Part shown: piece by piece, positions 44,842-49,500 of the stretch
Layout: each line of letters begins with the position of its first letter
Numbering within the stretch: position 1 is the first letter of the stretch
Translations under genes and position numbers: made by a program
Source of the DNA: Candidatus Baltobacteraceae bacterium
GTDB lineage: Bacteria; Vulcanimicrobiota; Vulcanimicrobiia; Vulcanimicrobiales; Vulcanimicrobiaceae
Direction of reading: 5' to 3'
Length of the DNA: 64,000 nucleotides
Assembly: GCA_036488875.1 (NCBI GenBank)
Contig: DASXGW010000013.1
Coordinates: 169,281-233,280, forward strand
Notes under the pieces: model-generated
Seen by the model: only the letters and a program-made list of their open reading frames with translations
What the model was told of the DNA's origin: nothing
The model's database searches: none

Positions 44842-47331
44842 GTGAGCGCCGCGAAGTATTCGCCGATGCTCGAGCAGTACTTCGGGATGAAAGGTAAGCA
44901 CCCCGAAGCGATTCTGCTGTCGCGCGTCGGCGATTTCTACGAAGCGTACGGCGAGGACGCCGAAACGATTGCGCGCGCGCTGCAAATAGCTCTGACGAGC
45001 AAGGAAGCCGGCGGCGGTAAACGCGTCGCTATGGCAGGCGTGCCGCATCACGCGCTGACGCAATACCTGGCGCGGCTGGTGCAGCAGCGCTTCATCGTGG
45101 CGCTGGCGGAGCAGTTGGAGGTTCCGCAGCCCAACAAGCTCGTGCGACGCGAGGTTGTGCGGCTCGTGACGCCCGGCACGCTGGTCGAGGAACAGCTGCT
45201 CGACGGGAAGCAGAACAACTATCTCGCCGCGATTGCCGCGATCGAAGAGACGTTCGCGGTCGCCTACGCCGACGTTTCGACGGGCTACTGCGCCGCGACG
45301 GCGTTCGGCGGCGAGAGTGCGTACGACGACGTCCTAACCGAGCTGGGCCGCATCGGACCCGCCGAGGTCGTGGCCGATCTGCCGGCCGGATTGCGCGCCG
45401 CGATGGGAACCGCGATCGAGAACGTCGGCGCGCGCTTGGCGGCCCCAGTGCTCGGTCTGGTCGAGGCGCGCCCGCGCGGCGCCATCGAGCAGTTCTCGCA
45501 CGACGAGTCGCTGGCGATCCATCGCGCGCTCGACGCGCTCGGCGCGTTCGTGCGTCGCACCGGCGTGACCAACGGCGACGGCGGACTCCAAACGCCGCAG
45601 TTTTACCGCAGCCAAACCTTTCTCGCCCTCGATCCGGCGACGCGTAAGAACCTCGAGCTCACGCGCGCACAGGGTCAGAACCCGCGAGCAACCTTGCTGG
45701 CGACGCTCGATCAGTGCGCGACGTCGATGGGATCGCGCATGCTGGCGCGCTGGATTCTCGCACCGCTGGTTGATCGCGACGCGATCGGCAAACGTCAAGA
45801 ATGCGTGGCGACGTTGCTGGAAGAACACGCATGCCGGCAGGCCGTTCGCGAGATTCTCAGAGGCTGTTTCGATCTCGAGCGAATCGCGCAGAAAGTGCGG
45901 TTCCGGCGTGCCGGTCCGCGCGATCTGGCATCGCTCCGGCGCACGCTCGACGTGTTGTTGCCGTTGCGCGCCGTGCTGCCGCGAGCGATCGTACCGATGC
46001 TCGACGGCATAGCCGATTTCTCCGGGCTATTAGATGATCTGCAGACGACGCTCGTCGACGAGCCTCCGGCGCTTCTGGGCGACGGCGGCGTGATTCGTCA
46101 CGAGGCCAATGCCGATTTGGCCGAGTGCATCGCGTTGCGGACCGACGTTCGATCGCGTCTTTCCGAACTCGAAGAACGCGAGCGGGAACGCACCGGCATC
46201 AAAACGCTGAAGATCAAGTACGCAAGCGCCTTCGGATACGCGATCGAGGTCAGCAAGAGCCAAGCCGGCAGCGTTCCGGCCGATTACGTTCGCAAACAGA
46301 CGCTCACGACGGGCGAACGATACATCACGCCCGAGCTCAAGGATCTGGAGCTGGCCATCTCAACCGCGCAGTCGCGACAGCAGCGTCTCGAGACGCAGCT
46401 CTTCGAAGCGCTCGTCGATCGCGTCGCCGCGCAGATCGACGATCTGCTGCAGGCTGCCGACACGATCGCGACCATCGACGCGCTCACGTCGCTGGCACAG
46501 TGTGCCGCCGAGCGCGGATACGTTCGGCCGGAGTTCGTCGAAGAAAGCGTCGTCGGGATCGAAGACGGACGCCATCCGGTGATGGAAGCCGTCTTGCGCA
46601 CCAACTTCGTTCCCAACGACCTACAGCTGCGCGACGACGGGCATCGTTTCATTCTGCTCACCGGACCGAACATGGGCGGTAAGTCGACGTACTTGCGTCA
46701 AGCCGGTCTGCTGGCGATCATGGCGCACGTCGGTTCGTTCGTCCCCGCCAAGAGCATGCGCTTGGGGATCGTCGATCGGATCTTCACGCGCATCGGCGCC
46801 GGCGACGACTTGGCATCGGGTCAATCGACGTTTTACATGGAGATGGCCGAAGCGGCGAACATCTTGCGGCGCAGCACGCATCGATCGCTGCTGTTGATCG
46901 ACGAGGTCGGTCGTGGTACCGGGACGCTCGACGGGCTCTCGATCGCTCAAGCGATCTGCGAGTTCTTGCTCGGTCTCGAGGAGTGGGCACCGATGGTGCT
47001 CTTTGCGACGCACTTTCACGAACTGTGCGCGCTGACCGAGCATTGGACGCAAGTAGCGAACTATCACATTACGGCGGTCGAAAATACCGCGCGCGGCGGA
47101 GCGCCGGTTTTTTCGCACCGCGTGCAGCCCGGCAGCTCCTCGCGATCGTTCGGTATCGAGGTAGCGCGTATGGCCGGATTGCCCGAAGCCGTCGTCGAGC
47201 GCGCGCAAGAAATCGCCGACGCGCTCTCGGGACACGCCGACGTGGAAGCGCAAGTACCATTGCGAAAGAAGATGCCCAAGAAGCCGCCGCAAGAACGCCA
47301 GTTGACGTTCTTGGGCGGCGATTCTTCTTAG
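44842..47331 (+). CDS. mutS: DNA mismatch recognition protein MutS
   Basis: An 829-residue MutS. The mismatch-reading Phe-x-Glu site is visible in RVGDFYEAYGEDA (about 29-41). The ATPase P-loop GPNMGGKST is at 608-616, followed by DDLASGQSTFYMEM, LLLIDEVGRGTGTLDG (Walker B) and ATHFHEL. A C-terminal extension (LRKKMPKKPPQE) is short. Start is GTG 44842. The 3' end overlaps the convergent selenoprotein gene by 4 bases. Confidence 0.96.
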   Translation: MSAAKYSPMLEQYFGMKGKHPEAILLSRVGDFYEAYGEDAETIARALQIALTSKEAGGGKRVAMAGVPHHALTQYLARLVQQRFIVALAEQLEVPQPNKLVRREVVRLVTPGTLVEEQLLDGKQNNYLAAIAAIEETFAVAYADVSTGYCAATAFGGESAYDDVLTELGRIGPAEVVADLPAGLRAAMGTAIENVGARLAAPVLGLVEARPRGAIEQFSHDESLAIHRALDALGAFVRRTGVTNGDGGLQTPQFYRSQTFLALDPATRKNLELTRAQGQNPRATLLATLDQCATSMGSRMLARWILAPLVDRDAIGKRQECVATLLEEHACRQAVREILRGCFDLERIAQKVRFRRAGPRDLASLRRTLDVLLPLRAVLPRAIVPMLDGIADFSGLLDDLQTTLVDEPPALLGDGGVIRHEANADLAECIALRTDVRSRLSELEERERERTGIKTLKIKYASAFGYAIEVSKSQAGSVPADYVRKQTLTTGERYITPELKDLELAISTAQSRQQRLETQLFEALVDRVAAQIDDLLQAADTIATIDALTSLAQCAAERGYVRPEFVEESVVGIEDGRHPVMEAVLRTNFVPNDLQLRDDGHRFILLTGPNMGGKSTYLRQAGLLAIMAHVGSFVPAKSMRLGIVDRIFTRIGAGDDLASGQSTFYMEMAEAANILRRSTHRSLLLIDEVGRGTGTLDGLSIAQAICEFLLGLEEWAPMVLFATHFHELCALTEHWTQVANYHITAVENTARGGAPVFSHRVQPGSSSRSFGIEVARMAGLPEAVVERAQEIADALSGHADVEAQVPLRKKMPKKPPQERQLTFLGGDSS

Positions 47332-47756
47332 AGGTTTGCTAAGACGTCCAAGGCGTGTCCCTTGACGTCGACCTTCGGCCACACCTTACGGATCGTGCCG
47401 CCGGCATCGATGAGAAACGTCGAACGTTGCGGATACTTTTCGTTTGGAACGCCGAACGCTTCGCACAGCTTTCCATCGGTATCGGCGAGCAGTGCGAACG
47501 GAATCGAGTATTTCTTTTTGAACGCTTGATGCGACTCGACCGAGTCGCAGCTCACTCCGACGATCCGGGCGTTTTTCGCTTGAAACTTTGCGTAAACGTC
47601 GCGGAACTGCGAAGCTTCGCTCGTTCAACCCGGTGTGTCGTCTTTCGGATAGAACCAGAGAACCAGCGGACCACCCAGTAGGCTCGTCGTGTCGACCTCG
47701 CGGCCTTCGTCGTCGAGCAGAGTCACCGCCGGCATTGTAGCGCCTTCTGCAATCAT
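47328..47756 (-). CDS. Selenocysteine-containing peroxiredoxin (BCP/PrxQ type), read through in-frame UGA
   Basis: A 142-residue thiol-peroxidase-type protein if UGA codon 44 (47625-47627) is read as selenocysteine. The first 43 residues (IAEGATMPAVTLLDDEG, LVLWFYPKDDTPG) are BCP/PrxQ. The next codon is TGA where the family has its peroxidatic cysteine (PKDDTPGC). Ninety-eight codons follow in the same frame: TSEASQFRDVY, IVGVSCDSVESHQAF, KYSIPFALLADTDGKL, AFGVPNEKYPQRSTFLID. The resolving cysteine of BCP, five residues later, is Ser. A hairpin like a bacterial SECIS lies just after the UGA. Start ATG 47756 gives normal family length. It lies between mutS and mutL, on the opposite strand. The alternative is a one-base nonsense mutation. 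Confidence 0.82.
47582..47618 (-). promoter_or_regulatory. Candidate bacterial SECIS hairpin
   Basis: Six bases after the UGA the mRNA reads GAAGCUU, C, GC, a loop beginning AGUU, then GC, A, AAGUUUC. GAAGCUU pairs with AAGUUUC (7 pairs, one G-U), then one C/A mismatch and two G-C pairs. The G at loop position 2 is 17 bases from the UGA, within the usual range for bacterial SECIS elements. The 17-base loop is larger than typical. Folding was done by eye. Confidence 0.55.
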
Positions 47757-47814
47757 GGGCGTGACGTTTATTGATGGAGGCAGCCTCTCCTTGGGGCCAG
47801 AACCGGTCGGCGTC

Positions 47815-49500
47815 GTGAAAATCGTGGAACTCGACGCGGTCACCATCGGCCAAATCGCGGCCGGCGAGATCATCGAGCGCCCGGCCTCGGTCGTCAAAGA
47901 ACTGGTCGAAAATGCGGTCGATGCCGGCGCGTCGCGCATTACGGTGATTCTCGAGCGCGGTGGAATCGATTCCATCGAGGTCGCCGACGATGGCGCAGGA
48001 CTCGACCGCGGCGAGTTGCCGCTAGCCGTGCGCCGCCATGCGACGAGCAAGCTCGCGACCGCGAGCGACCTGGAGTCGATTGCGACGCTGGGTTTTCGTG
48101 GAGAGGGTCTGGCGTCGATCGCCGCCGTTTCGCAACTCGAGATCGTTTCGCGCCCGTCGTCGGAGGAGGTCGGCGCGCGCGTGCGCGCACACGCGGAGCG
48201 CACGGAGGCCGTCGAGCCTGTAGCGTCGCCGCCGGGGACGCGCGTGCGCGTGGAAAATTTGTTCGGCAACGTGCCGGTGCGCCGCGAGTACCTGCGGTCG
48301 GCCCAGACCGAGTTCAATCGCATCTCGTCGTGGCTCTCCAGCTTTGCTCTAGCGTATCCGAAGGTAACGTTCGCGCTTCGGCACGACGGCAAGGACGTCT
48401 GGACGATGCCGCAGACCGCCGACGAACGCGAGCGGCTCGCCATGGTTTTCGGGCGCGATGCGGCACAGTGGCTGCTCCCGATCGACGAGTCGGCGGCGAG
48501 CACGTTGGATGGACGCCTGCGCGGTTACGTCAGCGCGCCGGGCCACGACCGCCCCGACCGGCGCATGCAGCTGCTCTTCGTCAACGGCAGGCTGCTGCGC
48601 AGCATCTTGATGGCGGGCGCCTGGACCGCGGGGTACGCAACGTTTGCGATGATCGGGCGTCAGCCGTACGGCGTGCTGTTTCTCGAGCTTTCGCCCGAAC
48701 ACGTGGATCCCAACGTGCATCCCACCAAGAGCGACGTGCGGCTGCGCTTTCCCAATCAGGTTTTCGAGGCGGCGCGCCGCGCGATCTCCGCGACTTTGCA
48801 CCGCGACGCATCCGCGCGTTTTCGCGAACACACTGCGCCGGCGGCCGGAGTCTCGGCGCTTCCCGACAGCGTCGACACGAGTTTGGCTCACGTGCAGTCG
48901 CTGTTCGAACGGCCGGTGGGCGACGCCGCCGACGTTCCGAGCCATCGTCTGCGCGTGCTCGCGCAGCTGCACCGTACCTACATCGTCGCCACCGACGGCG
49001 ACGCCCTGTTGCTGGTCGACCAGCACGCCGCGCACGAGCGTATCGCCTACGAATCGATCGTCGAGCGAGCCCGCAAACCTGCGCCGAACGAGCCGATGCT
49101 GGTGCCGCACGTCGTCGAGCTCGACGCGACGCAGAGCGCGGCGCTCGATCGCGTGCTGGAGACGCTCAACGAGGGCGGCCTCGAGATCGAAGGCTTCGGC
49201 GAGCGCTCCTATCGGATTCTCGCAACCCCAGCGGGCTTCGGCGCGCGGACGTTCGATCTGGGCGGTTTCTTGAGCGATCTCACGGAGGATCCCAAACAGC
49301 GCGACGTGCGCGAGCGCGTTTGGGCGTCGCTGGCGTGTCACAGCGTAACGATTGCCGGCGAACGTTTGGAACCCGAAGAGATGGCGACCCTGGTCGAGCG
49401 GCTGCAGCAGTGCGTCAATCCCATGCACTGCCCGCACGGCCGGCCGACGATGGTCCGGCTCGATCCCGGAGAGATCGCGCGCCTCTTCAAACGCACGTGA
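47815..49500 (+). CDS. mutL: DNA mismatch repair protein MutL
   Basis: A 561-residue MutL. The GHKL ATPase motifs are seen as IGQIAAGEIIERPASVVKELVENAVDAGA, ADDGAGLD and TLGFRGEGLASIAAVS. The C-terminal half has the endonuclease motif DQHAAHERIAYE and the zinc-binding-type CPHGRPT, so it should nick DNA. GTG 47815 gives the usual short N-terminus (MKIVELDAVTIGQIAAGE); an in-frame ATG at 47755 would overlap the start codon of the peroxiredoxin gene. The stop overlaps the miaA GTG. Confidence 0.95.
   Translation: MKIVELDAVTIGQIAAGEIIERPASVVKELVENAVDAGASRITVILERGGIDSIEVADDGAGLDRGELPLAVRRHATSKLATASDLESIATLGFRGEGLASIAAVSQLEIVSRPSSEEVGARVRAHAERTEAVEPVASPPGTRVRVENLFGNVPVRREYLRSAQTEFNRISSWLSSFALAYPKVTFALRHDGKDVWTMPQTADERERLAMVFGRDAAQWLLPIDESAASTLDGRLRGYVSAPGHDRPDRRMQLLFVNGRLLRSILMAGAWTAGYATFAMIGRQPYGVLFLELSPEHVDPNVHPTKSDVRLRFPNQVFEAARRAISATLHRDASARFREHTAPAAGVSALPDSVDTSLAHVQSLFERPVGDAADVPSHRLRVLAQLHRTYIVATDGDALLLVDQHAAHERIAYESIVERARKPAPNEPMLVPHVVELDATQSAALDRVLETLNEGGLEIEGFGERSYRILATPAGFGARTFDLGGFLSDLTEDPKQRDVRERVWASLACHSVTIAGERLEPEEMATLVERLQQCVNPMHCPHGRPTMVRLDPGEIARLFKRT

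Follow-up and report, generated by a model that had tools for sequence, protein, structure and literature searches.

Organization of the locus

The window (the whole 64,000-nucleotide stretch of DNA analyzed here) lies on contig 13 of genome G000 (3.72 Mb, 97.6% complete), and relatives carrying the gene described below are recorded as Candidatus Eremiobacterota. Between mutS and mutL, a minus-strand frame encodes a PrxQ (Bcp-type peroxiredoxin) of 142 residues when its sole internal stop codon, a UGA at residue 44, is read as selenocysteine (Sec) (Table 1). The gene lies tail to tail with mutS and is divergent from mutL, whose conserved start we place near 47815 by our own reading of the open frame. 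When a conserved mutS-prx-mutL cluster was sought among the loci fetched, mutL was found nearby only in the same-genus ortholog.

The read-through product begins with MIAEGATMPAVTLLDDEGREVDTTSLLGGPLVLWFYPKDDTPGU and continues as TSEASQFRDVYAKFQ...VDVKGHALDVLANL up to the stop codon; its start codon is consistent with the starts of homologs in the alignment. The preliminary description of this DNA had reported one minus-strand frame with a single TGA followed by 98 codons, and our translation likewise gives 98 residues past the UGA. Standard stop-to-stop reading yields a 75-aa fragment plus a spurious 292-aa open reading frame (ORF) in place of the gene; reading the UGA as Sec restores it.

Table 1. 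Positions of the genes and sequence features discussed in the text (window coordinates unless another contig is named).
Feature	Position	Strand	Details
mutS	44842-47331	plus	
Predicted Sec-PrxQ (Bcp-type peroxiredoxin) gene	47328..47756	minus	142 aa; ATG at 47756, TAA 47330-47328
Putative SECIS apical hairpin	47596..47615	minus	GCUUCGC-AGUUCC-GCGACGU, 6/7 pairs, G second in loop
UGA codon, predicted Sec44 (peroxidatic residue)	47625..47627	minus	motif TPGU (TxxU)
Trp34 codon (UGG)	47655..47657	minus	ten residues before Sec; from alignment of Sec and Cys forms
mutL	47689-49500	plus	as open frame
selD (locus L190)	G000 contig 12, 160593-161516	plus	UGA in DCAGUASK
Second selD-like gene	G000 C12:115180-115980		without UGA

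We also scanned all ORFs in the window by read-through for further UGA-containing selenoproteins and found no convincing second case. One long candidate, at 31611-30268 on the minus strand, consists of two open stretches in one frame, joined at UGA 31168. The first resembles TPR-type and the second D-aminopeptidase-like sequences; therefore, this candidate was rejected, and the region looks like two adjacent genes sharing a frame.

Family identity and the residue at codon 44

The read-through protein matched the Pfam AhpC-TSA profile at 128 bits, with residues 5-124 covering positions 2-123 of the 124 in the profile. The motif PxxxTxxC(U) is present within this complete domain as YPKDDTPGU. 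The PrxQ/Bcp models of NCBIfam also matched, with scores below their strict equivalog cut-offs (best 113 vs 260 bits). In the alignment with solved PrxQ/Bcp chains in the PDB, residue 44 stands opposite the peroxidatic Cys (Ser at this position in the deposited 3drn sequence), which bears out the earlier placement of the TGA at the catalytic Cys.

Distribution of UGA and Cys codons among homologs

Codon 44 was compared across 99 non-redundant homologs, as the preliminary description had proposed. It was TGC in 57, TGT in 6 and TGA in 36 homologs and was never TAA or TAG; that is, the position holds either Cys or UGA and no other stop. UGA was found at this codon in 21 of 99 genomes of the same bacterial family, and all others having the gene carried Cys. 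Five further genomes in the order or class carried UGA, and tRNA-Sec was detected in all five. Such recurrence at exactly codon 44, with no TAA or TAG, is far beyond chance. UGA forms were also present in records labeled Pyrinomonadaceae, Chloracidobacterium, Gemmatimonadetes, Deltaproteobacteria and Planctomycetota.

Among genomes at least 90% complete, tRNA-Sec was present in 16/16 genomes with UGA, and the UGA form occurred in 0/14 genomes lacking tRNA-Sec (Fisher p=0.005 within the same family, uncorrected for phylogeny). The 3 of 21 UGA genomes without a tRNA-Sec match were 63-86% complete. Compared with the same-genus UGA ortholog, the codons downstream of the UGA gave dN 0.20 and dS 1.0, indicating that they are under purifying selection; the decayed 3' half that had been named as grounds for doubting the gene is thus contradicted.

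The family is otherwise a normal Cys-type one, with Cys in most genomes, and the gene has a single in-frame stop, as would be expected if the stop arose by an error in sequencing or assembly or by a nonsense mutation that recently turned a Cys-PrxQ into a pseudogene. However, UGA occupies the same codon in more than a third of the homologs, from separate assemblies and several phyla, the region 3' of it is under selection, and in the well-assembled genomes of the family it appears only alongside tRNA-Sec. Because UGA recurs across independent assemblies, sequencing error can in practice be dismissed, and we consider error or pseudogenization together to be extremely improbable.

On the protein tree, well-supported branches account for at least three changes of the Sec/Cys state; the best tree has seven, and a tree from which the trait columns were left out has 13. 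Exchange between Sec and Cys in PrxQ has therefore happened repeatedly.

Selenocysteine machinery of the host genome

The machinery for Sec synthesis and insertion was searched for family by family in G000. We found tRNA-Sec (78 bits, model positions 1-91, anticodon UCA), SelA (508 bits), SelB with its GTPase domain, SelB beta-barrel and C-terminal winged helix (SelB-wing_3), and SelD (370 bits). The search for selA, selB, selC and selD suggested in the preliminary description was thus positive for all four. The SelD gene itself has an in-frame UGA in DCAGUASK, which we take to be the known Sec/Cys site of SelD, and a hairpin-forming stretch follows this codon. From its sequence, selD is therefore predicted to encode a selenoprotein, a second gene of G000 with the same recoding. 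The genome also has a second selD-like gene (Table 1).

Read-through of UGA could also result from genome-wide reassignment of this codon, e.g., to Trp or Gly. In that case, UGA should not be confined as it is: an in-frame stop interrupts only 1 of the 17 AhpC-TSA matches of the genome (the PrxQ described here), the long genes of the window have no internal UGA, and no other conserved gene of the window was seen to have an in-frame UGA outside a Cys position. Moreover, the UGA occupies the catalytic Cys site of the family in a genome with tRNA-Sec, SelA, SelB and SelD. We regard reassignment as even less credible than an error or a pseudogene.

Putative SECIS hairpin 3' of the UGA

A hairpin beginning 9-10 nt past the UGA (Table 1) resembles the bacterial SECIS type, which has a small apical loop containing G (PMC1088965). 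In the window copy, the UGA plus 42 nt folded as a single strand at -14.1 kcal/mol (z -1.78). Most UGA orthologs are able to form GCGUCGC-AGUUUC-GCGACGC or a variant of it; some misfit the 7-bp stem, and an AGUUYC-type loop is present in most. Stem cells were paired in 82% of cases in 26 UGA sequences vs 68% in the same region of 40 Cys sequences, and the covariation score was reached by 4/500 shuffles for the UGA forms (n=26) vs 185/500 for the Cys forms (n=40). Relative to synonymous resampling, the UGA forms had 150 of 182 pairs where 110 +/- 6 were expected; the Cys forms had 228 pairs against 190 +/- 8, a weaker excess. RNAalifold retained only three pairs of the hairpin.

These comparisons suggest that the hairpin is likely, though not proven, to be a SECIS element. 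The case is only suggestive because the window copy, which has one mismatch, is of moderate stability and because the inner four pairs also occur in many Cys orthologs. The stem in the Cys forms may be a remnant of a lost SECIS, as previously reported in other families (PMC1794560); alternatively, its inner part may be favored by the protein motif SQFRD. A scan of the window against Rfam at gathering thresholds gave no match. This was expected, since a general model for bacterial SECIS elements is, to our knowledge, absent from Rfam.

Tryptophan ten residues before Sec

In the alignment of Sec and Cys forms, the residue at -10 varied with the residue at codon 44. Trp was present at -10 in 36/36 UGA sequences (VLWFYPKDDTPGU or a close variant), whereas the Cys orthologs of Eremiobacterota carried Tyr or, once, Phe; six Cys forms with Trp at -10 were all from outside Eremiobacterota. 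Well-supported branches gave three independent contrasts for Trp and Sec, nearly always in the same direction, which are too few for significance. With three contrasts only, the coupling of Trp and Sec is a lead and is not demonstrated. Tuning or shielding of the selenolate is commonly attributed to a conserved Trp in glutathione peroxidases. It is conceivable, although we hold it only tentatively, that Sec/Cys exchange is functionally coupled to the change at -10 (Trp with Sec, Tyr with Cys) and that Trp plays such a tuning or shielding role in PrxQ. If so, Trp at -10 could mark peroxiredoxins that are, or formerly were, of the Sec type. We found no earlier report of a Trp before Sec of this kind.

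Proposed catalytic cycle

Taking these findings together, the gene almost certainly encodes a genuine Sec-PrxQ. We infer that SelB and tRNA-Sec (UCA) would decode the UGA at the catalytic codon as Sec44, directed by the hairpin in the coding region just 3' of it. The selenolate of Sec44 would then attack H2O2 or organic hydroperoxides and be oxidized to the selenenic acid, which an external thiol (thioredoxin, glutaredoxin or a low-molecular thiol) would most likely reduce. The overall cycle would be 1-Cys-like, i.e., a 1-Sec cycle, operating without a Cys at +5.

Atypical 2-Cys PrxQ proteins have a Cys at +5, and the window protein has Ser. The preliminary description, which had pointed out this Ser in place of the usual resolving Cys, was correct on that point; however, the replacement is not linked to Sec, because Cys orthologs of the same family carry Ser, Thr, Ala or another non-Cys residue there. 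A link between Sec and loss of the +5 Cys was therefore rejected: whether codon 44 is UGA or Cys, the subfamily does not belong to the Cys+5 type. In addition, the same-genus UGA ortholog (L019) has no Cys in the whole protein. Since the subfamily is not of the Cys+5 type and L019 lacks Cys, the best reading is a 1-Sec cycle in which an outside thiol is the probable reductant.

The window protein does have two cysteines, C70 and C98, and either could in principle act as an internal resolving residue and take the part of the outside thiol, which would make the cycle an atypical 2-Cys one; C98 is also common in relatives with a longer loop. However, both are poorly conserved. In the other Eremiobacterota orthologs of the family, Arg or Lys stands in place of C70; many forms, Sec as well as Cys, have Tyr or Phe where the window protein has C98, and the Cys-free L019 has neither cysteine. 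Internal resolution is therefore unlikely, and reduction of Sec44 by an outside thiol is preferred.

The longer loop comprises eight residues after residue 105 (VIVEKNMYGKKS-like) in orthologs such as L012 and L116. It is usually present or absent together with Cys98, in Sec and Cys forms alike; the window copy is mixed, having Cys98 with the short loop.

Comparison with known selenoproteins and peroxiredoxins

Sec-containing peroxiredoxins are long established. They were described as COG1225 Bcp with 43 sequences (PMC1088965) and as Bcp with a TxxU motif (PMC9312934), are listed as a family in PMC13188914, and their Sec/Cys conversions have been tabulated (PMC1794560). The window gene is thus not a new type of enzyme but a convincing further case from a phylum that has been little studied. 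A query joining Eremiobacter* with selenoprotein or selenocysteine returned no paper from the literature library searched. With this gene, a predicted selenoprotein-based peroxide defense can be assigned to Candidatus Eremiobacterota, together with the complete pathway for Sec decoding and repeated exchange of Sec and Cys. The many close relatives of both Sec and Cys type that have no +5 Cys offer a natural set of comparisons: they may show how a one-Cys peroxiredoxin gains from Sec and what changes at second sites, e.g., Trp/Tyr at -10, go with it.

The window gene shares with the known Sec-peroxiredoxin family the Bcp/PrxQ-type AhpC-TSA domain, the UGA at the peroxidatic codon, the TxxU motif (here TPGU), widespread Cys homologs and repeated Sec/Cys conversion. 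Ten further UGA-PrxQ genes (L148, L149, L155, L161-L163, L165-L167 and L169) come from Acidobacteriota, Gemmatimonadetes, Deltaproteobacteria and Planctomycetota records, and the +5 Cys is kept in most of them but not in the Eremiobacterota forms. Lacking this Cys, the window Sec-PrxQ differs from most UGA homologs found in records of Acidobacteriota, Gemmatimonadota and Deltaproteobacteria.

SelD of G000 belongs to an unrelated protein family; both genes nevertheless have UGA at a catalytic Cys site (CAGUASK in SelD) and a hairpin downstream. The closest solved relatives are Cys-type PrxQ/Bcp proteins such as PDB 5iiz and related entries (named Bacterioferritin comigratory protein) and 5enu, which are homologous over nearly the whole length and share the active-site motif PxxxTPGC. 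They have a peroxidatic Cys with Tyr at -10, whereas the window protein has a predicted Sec with Trp at -10.
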